Below, piece after piece: positions 34,195 to 40,150 of a stretch of DNA of 64,000 bases. The notes below the pieces were generated by a model. It was given only the letters and a program-made list of their open reading frames with translations, was not told where the DNA came from and made no database searches. Made by a program: the position numbers and the translations under genes. Position 1 is the first letter of the stretch; every line of letters begins with the position of its first letter. Source of the stretch: Bacteroidota bacterium (GTDB lineage: Bacteria; Bacteroidota; Bacteroidia; B-17B0; Aurantibacillaceae); the NCBI GenBank assembly GCA_030692515.1, contig JAUXZS010000024.1:372001-436000 (forward strand), given 5' to 3'.

Positions 34195-34374
34195 TTATTT
34201 AAAAATACATAAAAATGCTCATAATCAACAAATAATAAAATAGACCCAAAAAAGAAAATTAAAATGACAGTAGACAACTAGTATATTAATAAAAATCTGC
34301 ATTAGCAATGATAAATGTCATTCTAAAACAAACAAATAAGTTCTACCTTGAGTATCAATCTAAAATCAAAAAAT

Positions 34375-34785
34375 ATGACTATGACCCCTACCCAAAATTT
34401 ACATTATGCCATAGGTGAATTGGCCTATGCGGTTGCTCAAGCAGATGGAGCAGTTCAAAAAGAAGAACGTCAAAAGTTTCACGATATGGTTGAAGCAGGG
34501 CTCCGGTGTCAGGATTATGACTTCAATATTTCCGACATTATTTTTAAAATAATGGATAAAGACAAAACATCCACAGAAGACGCTTATAACGGAGCTATGA
34601 AACAAATAAGAACTAATAGTCATTATTTAAGTCCTGAATTAAAAGCAACCTTTATTAAGGTAATGGAGAAAGTTGCAATGTCTTATGCGCCAGTAACAAT
34701 AGATGAAATGAGCTTAATTGATAAATTTAAAGCTGAAATTGCTCCGTTAAAAGGCGATCCTATTTATTACGAAAAGAGATCTTAA
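34375..34785 (+). CDS. TerB-like small helical protein
   Basis: I choose the ATG at 34375 (MTMTPTQNLHYAIGELAYAV), giving 136 residues; an in-frame TTG nine codons earlier is less likely. The sequence GELAYAVAQADGAVQKEERQKFHDMVEAG is the N-terminal TerB/DjlA helix pattern, with the acidic D-G-x-x-x-x-E-E site. The second half contains a matching helix bundle (TFIKVMEKVAMSYAPVTIDEMSLIDKF). TerB-like domains occur in tellurite-resistance and membrane-stress proteins, but the standalone versions are uncharacterised. It sits between two minus-strand genes and appears to be transcribed alone. Confidence 0.6.
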   Translation: MTMTPTQNLHYAIGELAYAVAQADGAVQKEERQKFHDMVEAGLRCQDYDFNISDIIFKIMDKDKTSTEDAYNGAMKQIRTNSHYLSPELKATFIKVMEKVAMSYAPVTIDEMSLIDKFKAEIAPLKGDPIYYEKRS

Positions 34786-34838: not shown

Positions 34839-35516
34839 TCAACACTTTAGTGAACAAAAAAGTAATGACTCTAAAAATAAAATAATTTTTTTATCATCAG
34901 TTTCATTAGCAAAATCAGTCAAAGACGGAAGGTTTTGTTTGAAAAATTTTTGTGAGTGGGCCATCTCCAAAATTGTGCTTGCTAAAGAATGTGGATATTT
35001 GTATTTAGGATTGTACTCTTTTATAATGGATGAAAACCGTTCACATAAATCTTTATACGGCTTAAATAAACGGTCTTTATTGTCCTTACTAATATGTCTT
35101 GTTAAATAAGACTTTGCTCCCTCATAAATAACTAATTTATAGCTTTCGTATTCAGAAATAAAATCAGTTTTTTCCGACACATTAGATGGTTCTTCGGTAA
35201 TTAGCTTTATTATAGTCTTGAGTTTAAGTTCTGAATTTGTAATGTTATTTACACTAAAAATGACTTTATACTCCAAAAAACTCCAATACCAAGTAATTAA
35301 GTAAAGAAGTAACTTATGTTTATTTTCAAAATACCGGTAAATACTGGCTTCCGTAGTATCTATCTCTACAGACAGTTTTTTAAAAGTAAAAGTCTCAAAA
35401 CCAATTTTGTTTATTAAACTTAAGCCTTGTTTAACTATTTTCTTTCCTAAGGCTGATTCTTCGGGATTTCGGAGAAACAACTTATCGTTCATTTTAATAC
35501 GTACCTCTAAATGCAT
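34839..35516 (-). CDS. TetR/AcrR family transcriptional regulator
   Basis: The 225-residue protein has an N-terminal TetR helix-turn-helix (about residues 25-75; GKKIVKQGLSLINKIGFETF, FKKLSVEIDTTEASIYRYFE and NKHKLLLYLITWYW). A helical ligand domain follows. The upstream ATG (MHLEVRIKMNDKLFLRNPEE) fits the N-terminal extension typical of this Bacteroidota subgroup; the internal MNDKLF is an alternative start. It is divergent from an efflux-type operon at 35629, and a palindrome in the shared 112-base gap is a candidate operator. The likely role is a repressor of that operon that responds to an exported compound (inference). Confidence 0.9.
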   Translation of the reverse strand: MHLEVRIKMNDKLFLRNPEESALGKKIVKQGLSLINKIGFETFTFKKLSVEIDTTEASIYRYFENKHKLLLYLITWYWSFLEYKVIFSVNNITNSELKLKTIIKLITEEPSNVSEKTDFISEYESYKLVIYEGAKSYLTRHISKDNKDRLFKPYKDLCERFSSIIKEYNPKYKYPHSLASTILEMAHSQKFFKQNLPSLTDFANETDDKKIILFLESLLFCSLKC

Positions 35517-35628: not shown

Positions 35629-37872
35629 ATGACTAAACCTCAATTGCTTTTTAAGTGGTTATATAAGGAAAAAACCATTATATATAAAATTTACCTTTTA
35701 GCTATTTTACAGGGCTTAATGTATCTTGCAATTCCTTTGGGCATTCAGGGTATTGTTACCTTTATAATGGCCGGAAGTTTCTCGGCCTCACTAATTTTAC
35801 TAAGTTGTATAACGATTGTAGTAATAATTTTTATCGGAATTTTTCAATTGTGGCAAATGCGAATTAACGAAACTCTACACCAAAAAATTTTTGGCGACTT
35901 AGTTAGCAAGATTAATGGCTTTATAGAAAAAAATGAGCCTTCACCCCAAATGCTCACAAAGCTCAATAAATTTTTTGAAGTTGTTATCCTCCAAAAGGGG
36001 ATTAGTAAAATATTACTAGACTTTTCCTTTTCAATCATAAGCATCATTTTTGGTTTGCTATTACTGTCTGCATACAGCACATGGTTTTTAATTTTCACTA
36101 TTTTATTATGCGCCACCTTCTATTTTATCATTAGATATTATGGTAAGAAAGGGGTTGAAACAAACGTTCAGACATCCAATGAAAAGTATAAATTAATAGA
36201 ATGGTTTCAGGAAAATTCTATCGGGAAACAAAACCAAAATGTAACCGATGGAACAGATATAAACTTAAAAAATTATTTTACTAACAGAAAAAATCATTAC
36301 GCCATTTTAGAAACGCAGTTTAAGGGGATAATTATATTTAAGATTGTTTTTATTGGCTTACTCTTGTTCTTTGGTGCTTACCTTGTACAAAATGGAGACT
36401 TAAATATTGGGCAATTTATCTCGTCAGAAATCATCATCTTTTTGGTAATTAATTCTGTAGAAAAATTAGTTGGAAGCTTAAACATATTTTATGATATCAT
36501 TACTGCTCTATATAAAATCGAAAGCATTTTTGGAGGTAATAAGGAGTTTTCTATTCTTGAATCTAAAAATGGGGGCTTAAAAAGTTTATCTCATATATAT
36601 GTAAAACCGTATTCCAAAAAAATAAAAAAATCTTTAGCTGCATTGTTTATTACTGGTTTTATTATACTTCTAATGCCCTGGACACAAAACGTAAGTTCAG
36701 ATGGTAACGTAAGCACCCTTAATCCAGAAAACAGGCCTCAGGCAATTACCTCACGTATAGCGGGTAGGATTGAAAAATGGTATATTCATGAGGGAGATTT
36801 TGTTCACAAAAATGATACTATTGCATTTATATCCGAAATAAAGGATGACTATGTAGATCCACAATTAATTAGCCGTTCTGAATCTATTATCAAAGCGAAA
36901 GAAACAACCATAAAATCTTACGAGGATAAAATAAATGCTGTTGATTCTCAAATTGACGCATTAAATAAATCCCTATTATTAAAAATGGCTCAAGGACGAA
37001 ATAAAATAATTCAAGCTAAAATAAAAATAACAACAGATAGTATTGAGGCAAATACATCAACTAGTAATTTTAAAGTTGCAGAAGAGCAATTAAGGCGCTA
37101 TGAAGAATTAATGAGTAAGGGTGTTATTTCTAAAACAGAACTTGAAAATAGACGAGTAAAAGTACAGGATGCATTGGCTAGCAAAGCGTCTGCAGATAAT
37201 AAATATATCTCCTCGAAAAATGAATTACTGAATTATGAAATAGAATTAAACTCAATTCAACAAGATTTTCAGGAAAAGTTAATGAAAACTGAGTCAGATA
37301 AATTCTCATCACTTTCGCTTTTATATGAAGGTGAAGGATCATTAACAAAATTACAAAATCAACTCGCAAATTACAGTATGCGAAAAGGTTTTTATTATGT
37401 TTTAGCGCCACAAGATGGGTATATTGCAAAAACAAACGTTCAGGGAATTGGCGAAATAGTAAAAGAAGGTGCGGCTTTGTGCAGTATTGTTCCAATACAA
37501 GATGAACAAGCGGTGGAACTATATGTTAGCCCTGTTGATTTACCGCTTATTCAAAAAGGGCAAAAAGTTCAATTGCAGTTTGATGGTTGGCCAGCATTTG
37601 TTTTTTCTGGGTGGCCCGGGATAAGCTATGGCACATATTCAGCAGAAATTGTAGCATTTGACAAAGTACTTTCTGACAATAAAAAATTTAGGGTACTTGC
37701 AAAGAATGTTGGTGAAAAATGGCCAGAAGCCATCCAAATTGGTGGTGGTGTTAAAGGCTTTGCACTCCTAAAAAATGTTCCCCTGTTTTATGAATTGTGG
37801 CGAATAGTTAACGGTTTTCCACCTGAGTTTTACAAAAGCGATAATTCTAAAAAGGAAGAAACTAAAAAATAA
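35629..37872 (+). CDS. ABC exporter membrane domain fused to HlyD-type adaptor, ATPase domain absent
   Basis: The 747-residue protein is continuous and combines two normally separate genes. Residues 1-300 are a type 1 ABC exporter transmembrane domain: five or six helices, LQGLMYLAIPLGIQGIVTFI, GDLNIGQFISSEIIIFLVIN and NIFYDIITALYKIESIF. At the point where the nucleotide-binding domain should begin (about residue 303), the sequence passes within 20 residues into the start of an HlyD-type membrane-fusion protein: LKSLSHIYVKPYSKKIKKSL, a membrane helix LFITGFIILLMPWTQNV, the lipoyl/hairpin region ITSRIAGRIEKWYIHEGDF, a long coiled coil (about 400-560), and FYYVLAPQDGYIAKTNVQGI. No Walker A, signature LSGGQ or Walker B motif exists anywhere in it. 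TolC follows 1 base after its stop. Either a deletion joined two genes or this is an unusual ATPase-less component. Confidence 0.85.
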   Translation: MTKPQLLFKWLYKEKTIIYKIYLLAILQGLMYLAIPLGIQGIVTFIMAGSFSASLILLSCITIVVIIFIGIFQLWQMRINETLHQKIFGDLVSKINGFIEKNEPSPQMLTKLNKFFEVVILQKGISKILLDFSFSIISIIFGLLLLSAYSTWFLIFTILLCATFYFIIRYYGKKGVETNVQTSNEKYKLIEWFQENSIGKQNQNVTDGTDINLKNYFTNRKNHYAILETQFKGIIIFKIVFIGLLLFFGAYLVQNGDLNIGQFISSEIIIFLVINSVEKLVGSLNIFYDIITALYKIESIFGGNKEFSILESKNGGLKSLSHIYVKPYSKKIKKSLAALFITGFIILLMPWTQNVSSDGNVSTLNPENRPQAITSRIAGRIEKWYIHEGDFVHKNDTIAFISEIKDDYVDPQLISRSESIIKAKETTIKSYEDKINAVDSQIDALNKSLLLKMAQGRNKIIQAKIKITTDSIEANTSTSNFKVAEEQLRRYEELMSKGVISKTELENRRVKVQDALASKASADNKYISSKNELLNYEIELNSIQQDFQEKLMKTESDKFSSLSLLYEGEGSLTKLQNQLANYSMRKGFYYVLAPQDGYIAKTNVQGIGEIVKEGAALCSIVPIQDEQAVELYVSPVDLPLIQKGQKVQLQFDGWPAFVFSGWPGISYGTYSAEIVAFDKVLSDNKKFRVLAKNVGEKWPEAIQIGGGVKGFALLKNVPLFYELWRIVNGFPPEFYKSDNSKKEETKK

Positions 37873-37873
37873 T

Positions 37874-39268
37874 ATGAAAAAGCTTTTTTTAAATTTTGTG
37901 CTTTTTTGCACCTCAGTCAGTTTTAGTCAAACTACTTTGCTGCCAGAATATAATGATTTTATTTCAGGAATATTACAGCACAATCCATTAGCTAAACGAG
38001 CAAATAACGAAAAGAAATACGCTGAACTTCAATTAAGGTCGTCCAGAGGAAATTACGATCCGATAGTAAGTGGAAATTACGATCAAAAACAATTTAACGG
38101 ATTAAACTATTTTACAACATTAAGTAGCGAAATAAAGCAACCAATATTTACCAACCAGTATCTGAAATTTGGATATGATTATGGTATTGGGCCATTCATT
38201 AATCCAGATCTTTACACTACCCCTCAGGGCTTGCCTTATTTGGGTTTAGAGGTTGGCGTTTTGCAAGGATTGGTTATTGATAAGAGACGAGCAGACGTAT
38301 TAAAATCTAAAGCATACTTAAATTACTATTCCGCAGAGCAACAAATTCAACTTAACAACCTTTTATTCGAATCCTCTCAACTTTATTTTGAATGGTTGTT
38401 TAGCGCAAAACAAATATCCTTAAATAACTACTTTATGACCGCCGCTAGAAAAAGATTAGAGGGTATAGAGCAACTAGCTATTGTTGGCGAGCGAGCAATT
38501 GTAGATACTATTGAAGCAGCCATATTTTACCAAACTCGATTATTGGATCTGCAAACTGCCTTAATGGATAATCAGAAAAGCAGCAACGACTTGTCAAGCT
38601 ATATATGGCAGAATGGTAATCCTTCTTTATTAAATAATAATTATAAGGCTATTGATAGTCTTGAAACATACTACAATAAAGCCAAAGTCGCATTGGCTGA
38701 AAACTTAAACTTGGCTAACGCACAAAATCCAATTTTATCGAAATATAATGCATTGCAAAATGTTTTAAATGTTGATGTAAGATTAAAAAGGGAAATGATT
38801 AAGCCAATTTTAAATGTTAAGTATAATTTTCTATCCAATAGTACTTCGGCAATTAATCCTGTGTTTACAAATAACAATTATAAATGGGGTTTAAACATGT
38901 CGTTTCCTTTGTTTCTAAGAAATTCGACCAATGATTACAAAATGGCAAATGTAATCTCTCAAAATAATAGTTTAGAACTTACAAATAAAACCAATGAATT
39001 AAATTTTAAAATAAATGCTCTGCAGCAAAACATTTCTATTTTAGCACAGCAACTTCTAAATTCAGAACGATCCGTAAATTATAGCAAAATTTTGTTAGAG
39101 GCCGAAAAACTAAAATTTGATAATGGCGAAAGCTCTTTATTTATGCTTAATACACGTGAGAATAAGTTATTAGAAACTGAATTAAAATTGGCTGAATACA
39201 AGTTAAAATTCATAAAAACAACTCTAAATATTATTTACTTAAATGGAAATTTGAATTATAAACTATGA
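37874..39268 (+). CDS. TolC family outer-membrane efflux protein
   Basis: The 464-residue protein has a signal peptide (MKKLFLNFVLFCTSVSFSQ) and the TolC pattern of two helical repeats. The first begins GILQHNPLAKRANNEKKYAELQLRSSRGNYDP. The second runs from NAQNPILSKYNALQNVLNVD to LEAEKLKFDNGESSLFMLNTREN, the conserved G-E-S-S-x-F motif. Strands such as WGLNMSFPLFLRN would form the outer-membrane barrel. It should form the exit duct for the adaptor half of the preceding protein. It starts 1 base after that gene and overlaps the next by 4 bases (ATGA), so translation is coupled across the operon. Confidence 0.9.
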   Translation: MKKLFLNFVLFCTSVSFSQTTLLPEYNDFISGILQHNPLAKRANNEKKYAELQLRSSRGNYDPIVSGNYDQKQFNGLNYFTTLSSEIKQPIFTNQYLKFGYDYGIGPFINPDLYTTPQGLPYLGLEVGVLQGLVIDKRRADVLKSKAYLNYYSAEQQIQLNNLLFESSQLYFEWLFSAKQISLNNYFMTAARKRLEGIEQLAIVGERAIVDTIEAAIFYQTRLLDLQTALMDNQKSSNDLSSYIWQNGNPSLLNNNYKAIDSLETYYNKAKVALAENLNLANAQNPILSKYNALQNVLNVDVRLKREMIKPILNVKYNFLSNSTSAINPVFTNNNYKWGLNMSFPLFLRNSTNDYKMANVISQNNSLELTNKTNELNFKINALQQNISILAQQLLNSERSVNYSKILLEAEKLKFDNGESSLFMLNTRENKLLETELKLAEYKLKFIKTTLNIIYLNGNLNYKL

Positions 39269-39564
39269 TTTTATTAGATATTATTTTAAGCGATGGGAAA
39301 AAAGCTGAAGAAATTTCTGCTTTTCTTATCGAAAAAAAATATGCGATGCAAACGCACATTGACACAAACACGATTTTAACGACCGATGGACAAAAGAAAA
39401 CTATCAGGTTATTTTTTATTACAAAAGCATTATTATATAGTACTATTGAACACGAAGTAAAAAAGAATTTTTATTTAGAAGGAATGATCATTTACGCATC
39501 ACCGATAAGCCATATCAACATTGAGTTTGCTGAGATGTTGCGAACCAATATTAAAGCCATATAA
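39265..39564 (+). CDS. CutA-like small protein (ferredoxin-like fold)
   Basis: The 99-residue protein shows the spacing of CutA1/PII-like trimers: MILLDIILSDGKKAEEISAF LIEKKYA for strand-helix, RLFFITKALLYSTIEHEVKK for the central strand-helix, and GMIIYASPISHINIEFAEML at the end. CutA1 normally carries W and E/H residues for metal response that I cannot place here, so I treat it as a distant relative. It overlaps the tolC stop by 4 bases. Such genes recur downstream of HlyD-TolC pairs in Bacteroidota as far as I remember. Function is unknown. Confidence 0.55.
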   Translation: MILLDIILSDGKKAEEISAFLIEKKYAMQTHIDTNTILTTDGQKKTIRLFFITKALLYSTIEHEVKKNFYLEGMIIYASPISHINIEFAEMLRTNIKAI

Positions 39565-39565
39565 A

Positions 39566-40150
39566 ATGAATAAACTATTTATAATTTTTCTAATTAGCGC
39601 TTTGAGCGCAACTGCTCAGGATGTGCATTCATCAAAAACGTATATCCAAACCTGTTATCATAATCAGCAATGCTTCTCACTTAATAATACAGCGTTAATT
39701 TTTTATAAACCCGATCAACATGAATTGATTATAGTAGTTGATTTCGCGAAATTTAAAATCGGGAACGATACTCTTGATGAATGGCTAGATGACTTGGATG
39801 ATTCAAAGCTTATTTTTAAGGGGCACTTAAATGCAGATAATCTTTTAAGCCTTACGCAACATAATTCTAAAGCCCAACTTGTTAATGGTATGATTAGTTT
39901 TAATGGGGTTACACATGCGCACACTATTGAATTAACACTATTTGAAATACCGAGAGAAGGAATGTTATTTAAAGACAATCAAAACGACTATTTTGATAGA
40001 ATAAATGCTAACCTACAATTTGGATTTTACCCAAAGGAGTTTAAAATAAATAAAAAACCTCATCATTTAAAGAAAAAAATAACACTGGCAGTATACAGAG
40101 GATACGTAAATCCTTTTAAGCAGGGCATGGAACACTGGATAACTAACTGA
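39566..40150 (+). CDS. YceI-like secreted protein
   Basis: The start is the ATG at 39566 (MNKLFIIFLISALSATAQ), 1 base after the preceding stop; the longer frame starting at 39521 would put 15 polar residues before the signal peptide and is rejected. The 194-residue product is beta-rich, with LIFYKPDQHELIIVVDFAKF, SKLIFKGHLNADN and MISFNGVTHAHTIELTLFEI. This matches the YceI lipocalin-like sequence rhythm (F-x-G-x-L ... G-x-x-x-x-x-G-x-T). YceI-like proteins bind isoprenoid or amphiphilic molecules in the periplasm. As the last gene of the efflux operon it may handle the exported compound (inference). Confidence 0.6.
   Translation: MNKLFIIFLISALSATAQDVHSSKTYIQTCYHNQQCFSLNNTALIFYKPDQHELIIVVDFAKFKIGNDTLDEWLDDLDDSKLIFKGHLNADNLLSLTQHNSKAQLVNGMISFNGVTHAHTIELTLFEIPREGMLFKDNQNDYFDRINANLQFGFYPKEFKINKKPHHLKKKITLAVYRGYVNPFKQGMEHWITN

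Follow-up and report, generated by a model that had tools for sequence, protein, structure and literature searches.

An ABC-exporter membrane domain fused to an HlyD-type adaptor without an ATPase domain: a candidate ATP-independent, TolC-dependent pump in a clade of Bacteroidota

ABC exporters are ATP-driven machines and, amongst the pumps that work with TolC, EmrAB-TolC has a non-ATPase inner-membrane part. SbmA is described as having lost both its nucleotide-binding domain (NBD) and its coupling helices and as being proton-driven via glutamates, and YddA, in which the ATPase is present, already has part of this glutamate ladder (PMC13316013). The HlyB/HlyD complex is made up of three HlyB dimers and six HlyD subunits, a ratio of 1:1 (PMC11026475). 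We show, by comparison of sequences, that the gene described here is one of a clade in which an ABC exporter is without an ATPase domain and has its membrane domain fused to its own HlyD adaptor.

The window, by which we mean the whole stretch of 64,000 nucleotides that was analysed, comes from a bacterium of the family Aurantibacillaceae. The frame at 35629..37872 on its forward strand runs over 747 codons without interruption and is separated from a TolC-type gene by a one-base spacer, both as an earlier note on this DNA had stated. That note also took the product to be an exporter membrane domain (residues 1-300) joined to an HlyD adaptor, with the NBD absent, and Pfam and the open frame agree. 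The exporter-type transmembrane domain, with six TM helices, occupies residues 1-300 (35629..36528) and passes into the adaptor through a linker of about 30 residues (301-329; 36529..36615), which is the site of the ATPase domain in relatives, the switch falling between residues 300 and 318 (36529-36582); the HlyD-type adaptor fills residues 330-747 (36616..37872). Pfam places ABC_membrane at residues 22-273 (E 9.9e-8, 32.4 bits against a cut-off of 28) and HlyD_3 at residues 591-653 (E 1.1e-11), and ABC_tran is absent from the Pfam families listed for the protein at E up to 10. The possibility that a Walker motif had been overlooked came to nothing: there is no Walker A pattern in the 23 fused proteins examined, and 36 fused rows show neither this pattern nor anything resembling the signature. 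No NCBIfam model, those for type 1 secretion (T1SS) included, reaches its cut-off for the window protein, TIGR01843 giving 73 bits against a curated cut-off of 208.65.

Predicted structures, which are of monomers only, reproduce this architecture. In the model of the whole protein (pLDDT 81.2, pTM 0.59), six long TM helices are accompanied by a seventh, belonging to the adaptor (residues 330-348), and by a long hairpin (residues 413-579). The membrane part, modelled over 320 residues (pLDDT 88.7, pTM 0.83), has a short helix (residues 3-13) ahead of TM1 and no extra TM helix; PCAT1 and the HlyB of the HlyB/HlyD complex are its first and second Foldseek matches, and VIA-align superposes it on HlyB (8dck_A) with Z 25.3 and an rmsd of 3.0 over 304 residues, a match tied with TmrAB (Z 26.0) and others among the ABC exporters that it resembles. 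EmrA is the best fold match of the adaptor part (Foldseek; 4tko, E 7.6e-17), with MacA and HlyD also found; by sequence, a PDB search at E up to 0.01 matches the HlyD chain of 8dck alone (E 3.6e-4). Chains of SUR1, a non-transporting ABC protein, are the top structure matches of the full-length model. Pfam, the model and the fold matches together give the adaptor the N-terminal TM helix, lipoyl and barrel domains and alpha-hairpin of the HlyD type. At the hairpin tip (residues 490-501; 37096..37131, forward strand) lies the motif R-x3-L-x6-S, which we take to be the TolC-docking motif of such adaptors; it is found in 33 of the 36 fused rows and missed in L056, L113 and L115, the numbering of the first two being shifted. 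Compared with an ABC exporter of the type IV fold, the protein possesses the six-helix membrane domain and lacks the NBD with its Walker A/B, signature and H-loop motifs; conserved coupling helices are lacking too, these regions being relaxed and shortened relative to unfused relatives.

The same junction of membrane domain and HlyD, for which the earlier note had advised a search in other genomes, recurs in 22 of the 99 other genomes examined and in 18 of the 80 records of a second collection. Amongst 100 genomes, the window's own included, a full-length fused frame without stops was found in 23, the 22 other frames being 51-82% identical to the window protein and all 23 genomes falling in the window's family, across five genera; three further genomes hold partial frames, two at contig starts and one divided between two contigs. 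No second membrane-domain match was found in the fused genomes of this search besides fragments of the same gene (G012, G032). The second collection, of 80 loci, comprised 18 fused loci, 59 unfused loci with the domain, one unfused locus without it (L118, Fibrella rubiginis) and two partial loci (L126 and L153), which were dropped as the membrane domain was not on the contig. A draw of 247 genomes from the phylum contained relatives in 62, with the window's own genome as the only fused one, and the fusion is therefore a trait of the clade and not of the phylum. The full NBD that close relatives might have revealed between the two parts does not occur in the fused clade, and the earlier impression of a maintained locus holds good: the gene is present in many genomes, has a low dN/dS where this is measurable and is followed by a co-directional TolC gene in 36 of 36 distinct fused loci (five named records identical to loci of the genome search being counted once). 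The fused gene is a natural architecture, neither an assembly collapse nor a deletion in one genome. The unusual architecture, and the fact that each of the 18 fused records with a name is a metagenome-assembled genome, might speak for a collapse or a decaying pseudogene, but the identical, stop-free junction in dozens of independent assemblies and the low dN/dS in the sole pair with usable dS leave such an artefact next to no likelihood; since the fused frame is so widespread and conserved, we regard it as already refuted.

Among the titles and abstracts listed from the open-licence literature, none dealt with an ABC membrane domain that lacks its ATPase and is joined to HlyD, which is a weak negative. 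A search of plasmid proteins returned 25 records, none above 60% identity. In the eight that were listed the match falls into two pieces, and six of these are annotated as an ABC protein next to an HlyD-like or lipoyl protein. Plasmids of Riemerella anatipestifer (~102-105 kb; H1-H4) carry two-piece, apparently unfused relatives of ~41% identity, whose annotations read ABC transporter ATP-binding protein, HlyD and TolC.

Unfused relatives, which are orthologous to the window protein in both the membrane domain (~29-42% identity) and the adaptor (~39-53%), show what has become of the ATPase domain where it is still encoded. The motifs were scored in one alignment of the 79 unfused relatives that have the domain and four canonical exporters of the window's genome. 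None of the 79 has the full motif set: the signature SGG is found in 0/79, the H-loop histidine in 4/79 and the Walker B pair as DE in 5/79 (as ED in 34/79). The Walker A lysine is retained in 67/79, and these proteins may, judging by this residue, still bind ATP. The canonical exporters keep the motifs, with the exception of L079, which has DD for DE in Walker B. The outgroup, 14 proteins of 583-832 aa from outside the class, has the Walker A lysine in 14/14, the last signature glycine in 12/14, the Walker B D and E in 14/14 and 13/14 and the H-loop histidine in 11/14. Three outgroup proteins reach 87-93 bits with Pfam ABC_tran; amongst ten unfused relatives the maximum is 69.9 bits, and three have no match. 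The boundary of this decay is not strictly that of the class, since L200, from an out-of-class genome, has a degenerate domain and nests among class members. One subclade (L039, L042, L044, L046 and L048, four of the five in the window's genus) has ~150 extra N-terminal residues and a degenerate ATPase domain, shortened C-terminally and without a Walker A pattern. Most of the out-of-class Bacteroidota proteins L183-L196, in which the ATPase is near-intact, carry a region of ~140-250 aa ahead of the membrane domain, and in the two of these regions that were scanned (L183, L188) no Pfam model scored above its cut-off.

In three relatives the membrane domain is a bare protein of 332-337 aa, and the adaptor follows in a gene of its own: L118 (5959-6957), L181 (3491-4504) and L182 (5099-6103). 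In a tree of 90 rows they group together (support 100) beside an unfused relative (99) and apart from the fused rows, and an AU test on 43 rows rejects a single clade of all ATPase-less rows (dlnL 203, p-AU 9e-6), and with it a single origin of all ATPase-less forms. From this it follows that the domain was lost completely at least twice, once together with the fusion in the window's clade. Trees of 114 and 43 rows unite the fused rows in one group, at supports of 79 and 97.6; in the 90-row tree L115-L117, the main fused clade and two unfused rows meet in an unresolved fork. L056, which has an extended start, was omitted from the trees, and L187, L193, L194 and L189, the last with an incomplete membrane-domain match, from the 90-row tree. 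That the loss in the fused clade came after motif decay in its relatives is supported by the distribution of the forms on the trees. An in-frame deletion leaving an ATPase-less platform, one of two origins considered in the earlier note, is thus upheld as regards the maintained platform and abandoned as regards the deletion, the fused form being the end point of a widespread decay of the ATPase domain among its relatives and no simple local deletion.

The membrane core appears, from the one pair that is usable, to be under strong selection, evolving as slowly as the adaptor, and is no relic. dN/dS was calculated for seven pairs, six of which have a saturated dS in one region or more; the remaining fused pair, L104/L114, gives 0.024 for the TM core, 0.025 for the adaptor and 0.185 for the cytoplasmic loops, and in the other six dN follows the same order, with loops at ~1.7-2.8 times the core. 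Ten polar residues are invariant in all 32 main fused rows (Q122, K123, K127, S183, K186, Q230, K238, E267, E278 and K279), and the core conserves the acidic residues E81, D131, E267 and E278. The TM6 glutamate E267 (codon 36427..36429, forward strand) is found in all 134 family rows, namely 32 + 3 fused, 3 bare, 83 unfused and 13 outgroup, and in none of four canonical exporters; as it is shared with the outgroup, in which the ATPase is near-intact, it is a trait of the family and by itself no sign of proton coupling. Inside the TM core, the fused proteins have gained no further invariant acidic residue. Two differences were noticed post hoc: position 228, where TM5 ends on the cytoplasmic side, is E/D in 31/35 fused and V/K/L/M/I in 72/83 unfused rows, and position 298 is E/D in 24/35 fused against G in 68/83 unfused rows.

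An ATPase borrowed from elsewhere was the other origin considered in the earlier note, and an orphan ABC ATPase in the window's own genome the check that it advised. The PF00005 scan of that genome gave no stand-alone exporter-type ATPase domain among the best 30 of 44 matches; the genome encodes five complete ABC exporters. A profile of the NBD, built from a 24-row alignment of ATPase domains and searched against 12 of the 23 fused genomes, likewise gave a stand-alone exporter-type domain in 0/12: its 62 matches of at least 165 bits all lie in frames of at least 531 aa, the size of complete exporters (one of them interrupted by a stop codon); below these, the highest score is 125.5 bits, and a piece of 169 aa at a contig end (97.4 bits) is too partial to judge. 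Two of the three genomes that carry the unfused form without an ATPase were searched at E up to 1e-24, and neither has a stand-alone domain. An orphan ATPase was rejected as the main explanation because these scans found no stand-alone exporter-type domain. The two cytoplasmic loops on which an ATPase domain would dock, at residues 84-121 (the coupling-helix region; 35878..35991, forward strand) and 176-228 (36154..36312, forward strand), with borders set from hydropathy and the model after the column table had been seen, are relaxed in the fused clade. In a comparison of 32 main fused and 79 unfused rows binned by TM-core identity, mean loop identity at 50-60% core identity was 0.242 for fused pairs (n = 110) and 0.534 for unfused pairs (n = 1289); at 60-75% the values were 0.317 (n = 307) and 0.599 (n = 776). 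The second loop is also shortened, to 41-55 residues in fused as against 54-56 in unfused proteins, and P100 and R114, present in 81/83 and 82/83 unfused rows, occur in 0/35 and 2/35 fused rows. The three bare-domain rows, unlike the fused proteins, retain the docking-loop motif, and relaxation of the loops is therefore no automatic result of losing the domain.

The genes around the fused loci are variable, apart from a few that recur with the fused gene. Upstream and divergent from it lies a TetR-family regulator (34839..35516, reverse strand; Pfam TetR_N 2.1e-7), and such a gene is found within 2.5 kb, divergent, in 26/36 fused loci; of 83 unfused loci, 57 have a TetR gene nearby, co-directional in 56. 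The TolC-type outer membrane channel gene (37874..39268, forward strand; Pfam OEP 4.1e-22) overlaps by 4 bp at its stop with a gene for a CutA1-like protein of 99 aa (39265..39564, forward strand), with Pfam scores above the cut-off in two homologues and below it in the window protein itself: against the 22.4-bit cut-off of PF03091 the window protein scores 14 and its L059 homologue 15.8, with 35.4 for L046 and 30.1 for L067. Within 5 kb, 18/36 fused and 12/83 unfused loci have a same-strand CutA1-like gene, or 15/24 and 6/50 where both flanks reach 4 kb; these neighbours are co-directional in 30/30, and in L016, L111, L120, L042, L046 and L048 the gene overlaps the membrane-domain gene by 4 bp. 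Besides the operon copy, no CutA1-like match above chance was found in the window's genome with a profile which, being built from 14 proteins adjoining such operons, is biased towards operon neighbours. The CutA1-like gene is a probable member of the operon. CutA1 proteins are trimers of a PII-like fold, and a trimeric protein would suit a three-fold complex, which we offer as a lead. A putative LysR-type regulator (Q11) and a putative isocitrate dehydrogenase (Q13) of the window have homologues near some other fused loci and also near unfused L031, L033 and L043. Past the operon, 39521-40150 (forward strand) encodes a weakly YceI-like protein (E 0.14, under the cut-off) with homologues in fused L059 and L063, and beyond the TetR gene 34348-34785 (forward strand) encodes a TerB-like protein (Pfam TerB 8e-6).

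By analogy with SbmA, we favour ATP-independent, probably proton-driven export of small molecules or peptides under TetR control. There is, in our estimate, an even chance that the protein is a former ABC exporter turned ATP-independent, TolC-dependent pump, probably ion-driven, its energy source and substrate being what we infer. Six copies would form three membrane-domain dimers bearing a six-subunit adaptor ring docked on TolC; given the 1:1 ratio of HlyB to HlyD, the fusion would preserve the stoichiometry, and the topology fits, because the expected exit of the chain from the membrane domain is cytoplasmic, as is the start of HlyD. The membrane domain would keep its inward/outward switching, powered not by ATP but most likely by an ion (proton) gradient through conserved acidic residues, E267 among them. 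A small molecule or a peptide would be exported, its presence being registered by the TetR repressor of the neighbouring gene, and the CutA1-like neighbour may tune the complex from the cytoplasm.

Other readings dispense with export of this kind. The membrane domain might be no transporter and serve to anchor and space the adaptor ring, TolC then being supplied by another inner-membrane transporter or by periplasmic substrates, in keeping with an energy source that is not visible and with the related adaptor pump MacAB-TolC, which can be fed from the periplasm (PMC7943197). A plain anchor, however, needs neither a core that evolves as slowly as the adaptor nor invariant residues such as K123, K127, K186, K238, E267, E278 and K279 in 32/32 main fused rows, and we consider it unlikely. 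A gated channel, through which the substrate flows down its own gradient when the substrate itself or the CutA1-like neighbour opens it, would need no energy coupling; the missing ATPase, the TetR control, the SUR1 matches and the same-strand CutA1-like gene in half of the fused loci are compatible with it, but that gene is not nearby in the other half (some of which are cut by contig ends) and the conserved exporter fold suggests alternating access, so that it strikes us as decidedly improbable. Nor do we expect, other than as a slim prospect, the fused membrane domain to draw on the product of another locus, be it an ATPase domain or a whole ABC exporter. Some YddA relatives have their domains encoded by separate genes (PMC13316013), the window's genome has its five complete exporters and the unfused ATPase-less clade has kept the docking motif; against this stand the 12 of 12 fused genomes searched without a stand-alone exporter-type domain and the less conserved, shorter docking loops, which likewise leave the earlier suggestion of a borrowed ATPase unsupported.

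The system might represent a fourth class of TolC-dependent tripartite pump beside the ABC, RND and MFS classes, and here we are more tentative, holding it possible though somewhat doubtful: an ABC exporter would have become an ATP-independent secondary transporter stepwise, by motif decay, domain loss and, then or at the same time, fusion, with at least two complete losses in Bacteroidota separate from that of SbmA, and the CutA1-like, PII-like trimer may be a cytoplasmic regulator of the three-fold complex. One phylum appears to hold the stages of motor loss as recognisable relatives (near-intact, degenerate, absent, and absent with fusion) and, natural intermediates being thus available, the conversion of a primary into a secondary transporter becomes directly testable by comparing them. 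Bacteroidota genes annotated 'ABC transporter ATP-binding protein' and adjoining HlyD and TolC genes may, moreover, not hydrolyse ATP. The fused form, if it transports, would combine the inner-membrane and periplasmic parts of an ATPase-free TolC pump in one polypeptide.

Compared with HlyB-HlyD-TolC, the window system has the same membrane-domain fold (8dck_A, Z 25.3), an HlyD-type adaptor, a TolC gene and a 1:1 ratio of membrane domain to adaptor, but it has no ATPase domain, consists of one polypeptide in place of two and has a TetR neighbour; of the ATPase-driven exporter, adaptor and TolC that make up type 1 secretion, the adaptor and TolC are present and the ATPase is absent. EmrAB-TolC is alike in its adaptor, EmrA being the best Foldseek match, and differs in its inner-membrane part, EmrB being an MFS protein and the part in question here an ABC-type membrane domain. 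The Aat system was rejected as a comparison, its permease being LolC/E-like and of another family (PMC7943197). The unfused ABC, HlyD and TolC operons of Bacteroidota share an orthologous membrane domain and adaptor, TolC and often TetR, and differ in keeping the ATPase domain, the signature of which is lost in 79/79. With SbmA/BacA (SLiPT) the likeness lies in an ABC-exporter membrane fold without ATPase and without conserved coupling helices, and SLiPTs rely on acidic residues (PMC13316013); E81, E267 and E278, which are conserved in the present family, would be candidates for a comparable glutamate ladder. SLiPTs are importers with an extra TM0 (PMC13316013) and have no adaptor, whereas the window protein has an HlyD fusion with TolC, a PCAT1/HlyB-like membrane fold and no TM0. 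It does not belong to their sequence family, no SbmA/BacA Pfam model being listed at E up to 10, and SbmA is absent among the matches listed by Foldseek and VIA-align, which is neutral evidence either way. SbmA/BacA is nevertheless the closest analogue, in which the loss of the ATPase was a separate event.
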